This document shows positions 40,557-41,320 of a DNA stretch of 64,000 nt, one piece after another. The first letter of the stretch is position 1, and each line of letters begins with the position of its first letter. The notes below the pieces were generated by a model. It was given only the letters and a program-made list of their open reading frames with translations. It had not been told where the DNA came from and did not search any database. This stretch comes from Cognataquiflexum nitidum (GTDB lineage Bacteria; Bacteroidota; Bacteroidia; Cytophagales; Cyclobacteriaceae). The DNA is taken from NCBI RefSeq assembly GCF_022538055.1, contig NZ_JAKZAM010000003.1:124001-188000 (forward strand), written 5' to 3'. Both the position numbers and the translations under genes were made by a program.

Positions 40557-40604
40557 CAAAAAAAAGAGACAATCCGATCTTGGCTGACCAATTCCGATTG
40601 TCTC
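40557..40604 (-). terminator. Terminator of tRNA-like RNA 1
   Basis: GAGACAATC (40566-40574) pairs with GATTGTCTC (40596-40604), and the minus strand then reads eight T. It lies 31 bases past the 3' end of the tRNA-like core. Confidence 0.8.
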
Positions 40605-40635
40605 AATAGTAAAATAACCCAAATATAAATAAAGC

Positions 40636-40773
40636 TGTAGGAGAAGGATTCGAACCTCCACGGAGAAGTTAGGCAACAAAAGAGCTCTTTGTGTGCTTTG
40701 TCCAATCCTGATATTTTTCAGGTACTCCACCCCCGAGACAGGAGGGCATGTCTGCCAGTTTCAACATCCTACA
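40636..40773 (-). ncRNA. tRNA-like RNA 1 (class-II-like, odd anticodon arm, long insert)
   Basis: Read on the minus strand, this has a perfect 7-bp acceptor stem TGTAGGA/TCCTACA and a T-arm at 40643-40659 with loop TTCGAAT. The D-arm-like sequence TGTTGAAACTGGCAGACA resembles tRNA-Leu. A 5-bp anticodon-type stem at 40730-40746 has the 7-base loop CTGTCTC. The variable region is about 70 bases long, closed by GGAG/CTCC and holding two further hairpins. The loop would read GTC at the anticodon, with a pyrimidine at position 37, and the D-stem is weak. There is no encoded CCA. A -7 box and a leader hairpin (CAAAGC...GCTTTG) precede it and a terminator follows, so it looks expressed. It could be a decayed tRNA or a separate tRNA-like RNA. 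Confidence 0.6.
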
Positions 40774-40811
40774 ATGTGTGTATTTTCAAAGCCTTCTGCT
40801 TTGTAGCGGGT

Positions 40812-40819
40812 CAAAATTA
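40812..40819 (-). promoter_or_regulatory. Putative -7 box for tRNA-like RNA 1
   Basis: The minus strand reads TAATTTTG (TAnnTTTG), 39 bases before the acceptor stem. The second tRNA-like RNA has the same kind of box at nearly the same distance, which raises confidence in both. Confidence 0.45.
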
Positions 40820-41232: not shown

Positions 41233-41264
41233 AGTCAATTAACAATAAACCCAAAATAACCAGA

Positions 41265-41320
41265 TGTAGGAGAAGGACTCGAACCTTCGGGGTAATCCCC
41301 ACCACTTTTTCAATCCTACA
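41265..41320 (-). ncRNA. tRNA-like RNA 2 (minimal acceptor/T-arm form)
   Basis: This 56-base element on the minus strand has the same acceptor stem TGTAGGA/TCCTACA as RNA 1. It has a perfect T-arm (41272-41288, stem GAAGG/CCTTC, loop TTCGAGT) and a small GGGG-ATTA-CCCC hairpin (41289-41300). Thirteen unpaired bases stand where the D and anticodon arms should be, so it cannot decode. A -7 box and a short leader hairpin (TTGG...CCAA) lie upstream and a terminator downstream, in the same arrangement as RNA 1, showing that the two are related transcription units. Confidence 0.6.

Follow-up and report, generated by a model that had tools for sequence, protein, structure and literature searches.

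The window, a stretch of 64,000 nucleotides of the Cognataquiflexum nitidum genome, carries a tRNA-like RNA on its minus strand (40773-40634; the parts and flanks described below lie on the same strand). It was matched by R1, a covariance model of the RNA family, with 126 bits over model positions 1-125, G73 being at 40635 and C74 at 40634. As described in the initial annotation, the acceptor stem is perfect, with TGTAGGA (40773-40767) and TCCTACA (40642-40636) forming 7 of 7 pairs that begin with U1-A72 and G2-C71, and a T-arm (GGAGG-TTCGAAT-CCTTC, 40659-40643) and a tRNA-Leu-like D-arm with a 3-bp stem (40764-40748, from an alignment of 25 copies) are both present. The anticodon-like arm (40746-40730) consists of the stem CCCTC/GGGGG and the loop CTGTCTC (40741-40735), with G34, U35 and C36 at 40739-40737. 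The variable region, described earlier as about 70 bases with two hairpins, measures 67 nt (40728-40662); covariation was used to place its base stem GGAG/CTCC, hairpin 1 (40722-40707), a conserved internal loop GGACAAA/CTAAC (40703-40697 and 40672-40668) and hairpin 2, which contains GAGCTC (40696-40673).

The flanking signals reported earlier were also found. A -7 box, TAATTTTG (40819-40812), is of the TAnnTTTG type, which we take to be the Bacteroidetes promoter -7 type. It is separated from the RNA by a leader of 38 nt with a hairpin, CAAAGC/GCTTTG (40803-40787), and an intrinsic terminator (40604-40558; hairpin at 40604-40566 followed by a T-run) lies downstream; leader hairpin and terminator were read from this copy in the window. 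With its box and terminator, the RNA looks like a stand-alone transcription unit.

No tRNA was called by ARAGORN in the window, and Rfam gave no match at the RNA either at the gathering score or up to E 1, so that a known tRNA or tmRNA, which would have spoken against the initial annotation, was found by neither program. The RNA is not among the 41 RF00005 matches of the genome, whose normal tRNAs include four tRNA-Leu and two tRNA-Asp(GTC); two more copies of the RNA are present in tandem. The single-sequence folding energy of the window RNA is unremarkable (z -0.72), and copies from four relatives gave z values of -0.54, -2.04, -1.12 and +0.07.

Two other RNA elements were observed in the window. 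A mini tRNA-like element of 58 nt (41263-41320, minus strand; 30.9 bits with R1; U73) has the acceptor TGTAGGA/TCCTACA and T-arm of the main RNA, without D arm or anticodon arm; its 3' flank and terminator are similar to those of the copy C15. Such elements are also found near the RNA in loci L005-L008 of the same genus and in L010 of another genus. A DUF805 RNA (RF03081, 77 bits) lies at 37-101 on the minus strand.

A covarying RNA family in Bacteroidota and phages

When the window RNA was used as a BLAST query, matches were found in 29 of 39 relatives. Twenty-five aligned copies form a class II cloverleaf in which 96.4% of cells pair, with a covariation score of 0.265; shuffling gave a mean of 0.141, and none of 500 shuffles reached the observed score. 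In the base stem of the variable arm both sides change in three of four pairs, with no broken cell. An alignment of 100 distinct further rows from the listed named-genome matches, fitted to the covariance model, has two-sided change in 20 of 28 pairs, again with none of 500 shuffles as high. This conservation and covariation in relatives rules out a decaying tRNA and bears out the earlier view of a maintained tRNA-like RNA.

R1 reached at least 70 bits in 40 of 395 genomes of the phylum (the RNA+ set), a cut-off chosen after a gap in the scores was seen; the unfiltered tally of 361 of 395 includes ordinary tRNAs. Each of eleven weak matches that were retrieved (L360-L370, scoring at most 62.8 bits) is a tRNA-Leu according to ARAGORN. 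The cut-off drops G036 (69.1 bits), whose relative of the RNA (L359, 1501-1577) is 77 nt long with a short variable loop and is called tRNA-Asp(atc) by ARAGORN; its loop is CTATCTC, and U35 C36 U37 C38 and G73 are retained. A pattern search with the end of the D-arm and the anticodon-like arm returned at least 120 stretches in named genomes and at least 120 in IMG/VR. Among the matches listed, the named genomes belong to Cytophagales, Chitinophagaceae, Pedobacter and other Sphingobacteriaceae, Saprospiraceae and an Ignavibacteriales MAG. At least 70 bits were obtained with R1 in 119 of 120 listed genome stretches (L226 gave no match at E 1e-12) and in 114 of 120 listed viral stretches, the remaining six scoring 60-69 bits. 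The RNA is thus a covarying family of Bacteroidota, present in several orders and in phages and missed by ARAGORN and Rfam; an Rfam scan of 18 other loci also gave no match to the RNA above the gathering score.

The family is built from a 7-bp acceptor, a 3-bp tRNA-Leu-like D stem, a 5-bp anticodon-like stem and a T-arm. Among the matches listed, whole-RNA length ranges from 109 to 211 nt in 162 distinct host copies and from 91 to 172 nt in 66 phage copies, and this spread sits in the variable arm. A conserved internal loop of GGAUAAA-type/CUAAC lies above the covarying base stem, CUAAC being present in 149 of the 162 host and 20 of the 66 phage copies listed. The apical stem on this loop starts with a CG, GC or UA pair. 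Apical motifs are clade-specific, with GAGCUC in the group of the window; GGUNGACCAC occurs in 60 of 162 host and 52 of 66 phage copies among the matches listed. The D-arm measures 26-39 nt in 13 of the 66 listed phage copies, and hairpin insertions in the D-loop, with GGCAG kept, were seen in L022 (1185-1353) and several phage copies.

Among the matches listed, a TAnnTTTG box lies within 100 nt upstream of 92 of 162 host copies (about 12 in letter-shuffled sequence), and a terminator-like hairpin follows 115 of 160 (3 when shuffled); for phage copies the counts are 6 of 64 and 2 of 65. Judged by these flanks, host copies are predicted to be separate transcription units and phage copies mostly not. 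A Flavo-1-like RNA (40.7 bits; gathering score 42) was observed near the copy in L094 (633-700, plus strand).

Two candidate identities were rejected. Mimicry of the 16S anti-Shine-Dalgarno sequence by CCUCC in the anticodon-like stem was discarded because the stem also reads CCUUC, CCCGC or CCCCC. Bacterial Y RNA (YrlA) has a tRNA-like module with an insert, as does this RNA; no Rfam match was obtained, and a TROVE gene was found in 3 of 30 genomes, that of the window not among them.

Of the 120 listed IMG/VR loci, 43 contain a terminase-like gene and 26 a portal-like gene. Twenty phage loci were scanned for tRNAs; several have large arrays (up to 25 tRNAs; three with tmRNA), in which the RNA often lies beside tRNA-Ser, and two are without any tRNA. 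One copy is carried by a 636-kb uncultured phage record. The RNA is present in record LR756504.1 (97.6 bits); two tRNA-Leu were found in MT835737.1. In known phage records two queries gave no match and two further queries weak or unrelated ones; one query of known plasmid records gave no match. Palindromes of at least 8 nt were found in 40 of 57 phage inserts (shuffled mean 13, maximum 18) and in 49 of 148 host inserts (shuffled mean 31, maximum 42). L241, L251, L258, L266 and others have varying A-flanked apical palindromes of 6 nt (GCGCGC, GCATGC, GCTAGC) that resemble kissing dimers. Homodimerization through palindromic loops was set aside as an explanation, with phage inserts enriched and host inserts at 49 against 31.

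Identity bases and the anticodon-like loop

A decoding loop has U33 and a purine at position 37. The loop CTGTCTC had been called abnormal in the initial annotation; it is indeed a poor decoding loop, but it is not a random one, since CUGUCUC differs from the tRNA-Asp loop of the same genome, CUGUCAC, at position 37 only (A37 to U). Identity bases were counted in 69 distinct copies whose detection did not depend on a set loop pattern, L031 (74.5 bits) being excluded because a contig end cuts it. G73, C74, U35, C36, C38, G2-C71 and U1-A72 are present in 69 of 69, so that G1-C72 is absent; G34 is present in 64 and U33 in 55. Position 37 is U in 66 copies and C in three, and never a purine. In the copies inspected, a single base lies between G19 and A21 of the D loop, leaving no U20a. 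The loop form NNGUCUC together with G73 in all 69 departs from tRNA-Leu, which has A73 and a Leu anticodon. Charging with serine, considered for a class II RNA with G73, was set aside since the GUC and C38 loop was seen to be fixed. Among the 162 listed host copies, U1-A72 is found in 161 and G2-C71 and G73 in 162, and pairs 4-7 vary; because the pattern search mostly fixed the loop letters, the acceptor end alone is informative in pattern-found copies.

G73, G34, U35, C36 and C38 are described as five strong aspartate determinants, and G1-C72 and G2-C71 as crucial for bacterial aspartate identity (PMC9976931, in excerpt). According to the same excerpt, amidation of Asp-tRNA-Asn is marked by U1-A72, with G1-C72 and U20a as counter-marks. 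Set against our counts, this list gives the RNA all five strong determinants and G2-C71, with the GatCAB mark in place of G1-C72. The RNA appears from its bases to carry aspartate identity and the GatCAB mark on a poor decoding loop. The presence of U1-A72 where AspRS would look for the important pair G1-C72 counts against an asparagine-forming role. A bacterial-type AspRS is encoded in the window genome.

A rival reading is an odd but decoding tRNA-Asp isoacceptor with the anticodon GUC. Short phage copies without the extra domain were called tRNA-Asp by ARAGORN in 6 of the 20 phage loci scanned, and the frequency of U33 fits such a tRNA. We nevertheless give this very little credence: the window genome already has its two normal tRNA-Asp, position 33 varies and 37 is never a purine, U1-A72 would make the RNA a GatCAB substrate, and the co-occurrence with GatB described below speaks against it. 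The presence of a normal tRNA-Asp in some of the same phage arrays speaks for a supply role rather than the decoding of Asp codons.

Co-occurrence with GatB and the AsnC-like gene

Before GatB was searched for, it was predicted that the RNA would occur with GatCAB and against asparagine synthetase. Presence of GatCAB was gauged by GatB alone, in the 40 RNA+ genomes and in RNA- genomes picked by hand, 27 from the same class and 12 from other classes. A second R1 search with relaxed filters, covering 32 of these 39 and among them all 27 of the same class, gave no match of 70 bits or more; the status of the remaining seven was taken from the search of 395 genomes. GatB was found in 40 of 40 RNA+ genomes and in 1 of 27 RNA- genomes of the same class (Fisher's test within the class, 4.5e-17, for genomes that are related). 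In the other classes, RNA- genomes generally have GatB (11 of 12), which counts against the asparagine reading. The sole RNA- genome of the class with GatB, G030, is without GlnRS, which could explain its GatCAB.

AsnRS was over the cut-off in 76 of 79 genomes, including all 40 RNA+, and GlnRS in 33 of 40 RNA+ genomes, 26 of 27 RNA- genomes of the same class and 3 of 12 of other classes. Where both are present, as in these 33 RNA+ genomes, GatCAB is unneeded for either classical product. The window genome has no GlnRS over the cut-off, so that its GatCAB has another job, and it is to that extent a case against the proposed role. The best GlnRS match in genome G000 is below the cut-off (71 bits), whereas most of the genomes compared from that family carry the enzyme; the tRNA-Gln of G000 shows U1-A72 and has its CCA encoded.

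AsnA was found in 3 of 40 RNA+ genomes, 7 of 27 RNA- genomes of the same class and 0 of 12 of other classes. For E. coli-type AsnB (NF006949) the counts over the cut-off were 0 of 40, 21 of 27 (one of the 21 with stops in frame, and two more genomes just below the cut-off) and 1 of 12. With the two near misses included, AsnA or NF006949-type AsnB is present in 3 of 40 RNA+ genomes, 25 of 27 RNA- genomes of the class and 1 of 12 others. The broad AsnB family TIGR01536, a possible source of Asn in these genomes, was over the cut-off in 35 of 40 RNA+ genomes and is a further point against the asparagine reading. Most of its frames measure about 570-720 aa, and a genome often has several of them; the frame in the window genome is 595 aa long. 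Neither AsnA nor TIGR01536 was over the cut-off in the RNA+ genomes G355, G186, G304, G284 and G034. One genome, G152, has no RNA, no GatB and no synthetase over the cut-off.

At least eight changes of the RNA label are required on a tree built from the AsnRS of 73 genomes. In six independent pairs on this tree, GatB changes with the RNA in four to six and never against it (sign test, p 0.0625 at the median and between 0.031 and 0.125 overall). In the same pairs, a change of AsnA/AsnB opposite to that of the RNA was counted in 3.4 of six on average. In one sister pair, G355 has the RNA and GatB and no AsnA/AsnB, whereas G014 has AsnA and neither RNA nor GatB; a further example is G117/G175 versus G040/G159.

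The co-occurrence could in principle reflect asparagine formation by GatCAB on ordinary tRNA-Asn after charging by a non-discriminating AspRS, as in Bdellovibrio, with the RNA unrelated. The tRNA-Asn of the window genome does have U1-A72, and the excerpt of PMC4206432 describes this route with a single AspRS and places Bacteroidetes among the candidate clades. It would leave unexplained both the aspartate identity bases of the RNA and the joint loss of RNA and GatB inside families, and we give it scarcely any weight.

An AsnC-like gene lies head-to-head with the RNA, starting within 500 nt, in 105 of 167 distinct host loci among the listed matches; 61 are without such a gene and one has it placed otherwise. 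The distance is 121-253 nt in 85 of 135 listed loci (repeats kept). The protein belongs to Pfam Lrp/AsnC; among proteins of solved structure, E. coli AsnC matches it best (124 bits; next 88). The gene was found beside the RNA in 0 of 92 distinct phage loci among the listed matches, in none of 10 AsnA/AsnB-family loci and in none of 40 own tRNA loci, the last a weak control because ten of the loci are shorter than 700 nt. It is also absent near the RNA copies of the window genome, which does not favor the asparagine reading there, and of the Algoriphagus-Cyclobacterium group. In E. coli, AsnC is an activator of asnA, with a weaker effect when Asn is present, and is counted among the regulators divergent to their own target (PMC8707732, PMC4482635, both in excerpt). 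Other recurrent neighbors among the listed loci are a SufB-type gene (24 of 136) and an AMP-binding gene (22 of 136).

Proposed asparagine synthesis on a tRNA, and known systems

Taken as sequence evidence, these results make it probable that asparagine is synthesized on this RNA as a dedicated tRNA that takes no part in decoding. The RNA would be transcribed alone, trimmed and given CCA. AspRS would then load Asp by way of G73, G34 U35 C36, C38 and G2-C71, and GatCAB, reading U1-A72, would amidate Asp-RNA to Asn-RNA; we infer both steps from the identity bases and the co-occurrence. Asn would finally leave the RNA through a putative deacylase or transfer and feed AsnRS, which these genomes keep; no candidate for the release enzyme was found. 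Exclusion from decoding is suggested by the loop: variable 33, pyrimidine 37 and the large variable-arm domain would stop Asn-RNA from misreading Asp codons. Of the readings offered in the initial annotation (a tRNA-derived regulatory RNA, an RNase P or EF-Tu substrate, or an unusual tRNA), the last comes nearest, the aspartate bases, the GatB and AsnC-like links and the spread of the family having gone unseen there.

The RNA might instead be a sensor, charged or bound by AspRS and GatCAB, with its charging state controlling transcription, AspRS or GatCAB, and bulk Asn made elsewhere. The adjoining AsnC-like gene, the RNA's own promoter and terminator, the clade-specific apical motifs and palindromes and the persistence of AsnB-like proteins would suit a regulatory RNA. 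We regard it as unlikely, as it would leave unexplained why AsnA and E. coli-type AsnB are nearly absent, and an unsystematic look found no conserved target pairing. A role as amino-acid donor, in which the Asn or Asp on the RNA would pass into something made off the ribosome, for instance a lipid, a peptide or a cell-wall bridge, seems quite improbable. Non-translating donor tRNAs exist (PMC8007984, in excerpt) and the AMP-binding gene is a recurrent neighbor, yet no recurrent transferase gene was found among the neighbors examined, and the AsnA/AsnB link would again be unexplained.

We would give somewhat less than even weight to the wider proposal built on the asparagine-forming tRNA, namely that a tRNA outside translation acts as a reusable metabolic cofactor on which AspRS and GatCAB turn Asp into Asn that is given up free, that it replaces asparagine synthetase in several Bacteroidota orders under an AsnC-type regulator, and that phage copies sustain Asn during infection. 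If correct, an RNA family absent from Rfam would carry amino-acid synthesis on a tRNA not used in decoding, which would explain the source of Asn in many Bacteroidota with AsnRS and without AsnA or E. coli-type AsnB, and the retention of GatCAB in those that also have GlnRS. Were free Asn the product, a tRNA would be serving a new purpose.

That Asp can be converted to Asn on tRNA is already known; the new element is the separate non-decoding carrier, and the part of the literature surveyed holds no description of this RNA or of such a carrier. The Bdellovibrio AspRS charges tRNA-Asn, and 18 genera, Bacteroidetes included, have AsnRS, GlnRS and GatCAB without Asn synthetase, for which tRNA-Asn was proposed as carrier (PMC4206432, in excerpt). 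That route (non-discriminating AspRS and GatCAB; Bdellovibrio, Deinococcus, Thermus) has in common with the proposed one, as far as the excerpt goes, the order AspRS then GatCAB, the presence of AsnRS, U1-A72 and the lack of AsnA/AsnB; its carrier is the decoding tRNA-Asn, whereas here it would be a separate, non-decoding RNA with an aspartate loop.

With tRNA-Asp(GUC) the RNA shares G73, G34 U35 C36, C38, G2-C71 and the loop except at 37; it differs in U1-A72 instead of G1-C72, pyrimidine 37, the Leu-like D-arm and a class II arm with an extra domain. Body and D-arm are common to tRNA-Leu, and own tRNA-Leu score 42-54 bits with R1, but the RNA has G73 rather than A73, an aspartate loop and a long structured insert. 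In Staphylococcus aureus, tRNA-Gly(UCC) serves pentaglycine bridges as a charged tRNA outside translation (PMC8007984, in excerpt); there the amino acid is another one, and neither amidation nor an extra domain is involved. E. coli asnC-asnA likewise has an AsnC-type regulator divergent from an asparagine-making gene (PMC8707732, in excerpt), and here an RNA gene stands in the place of asnA.
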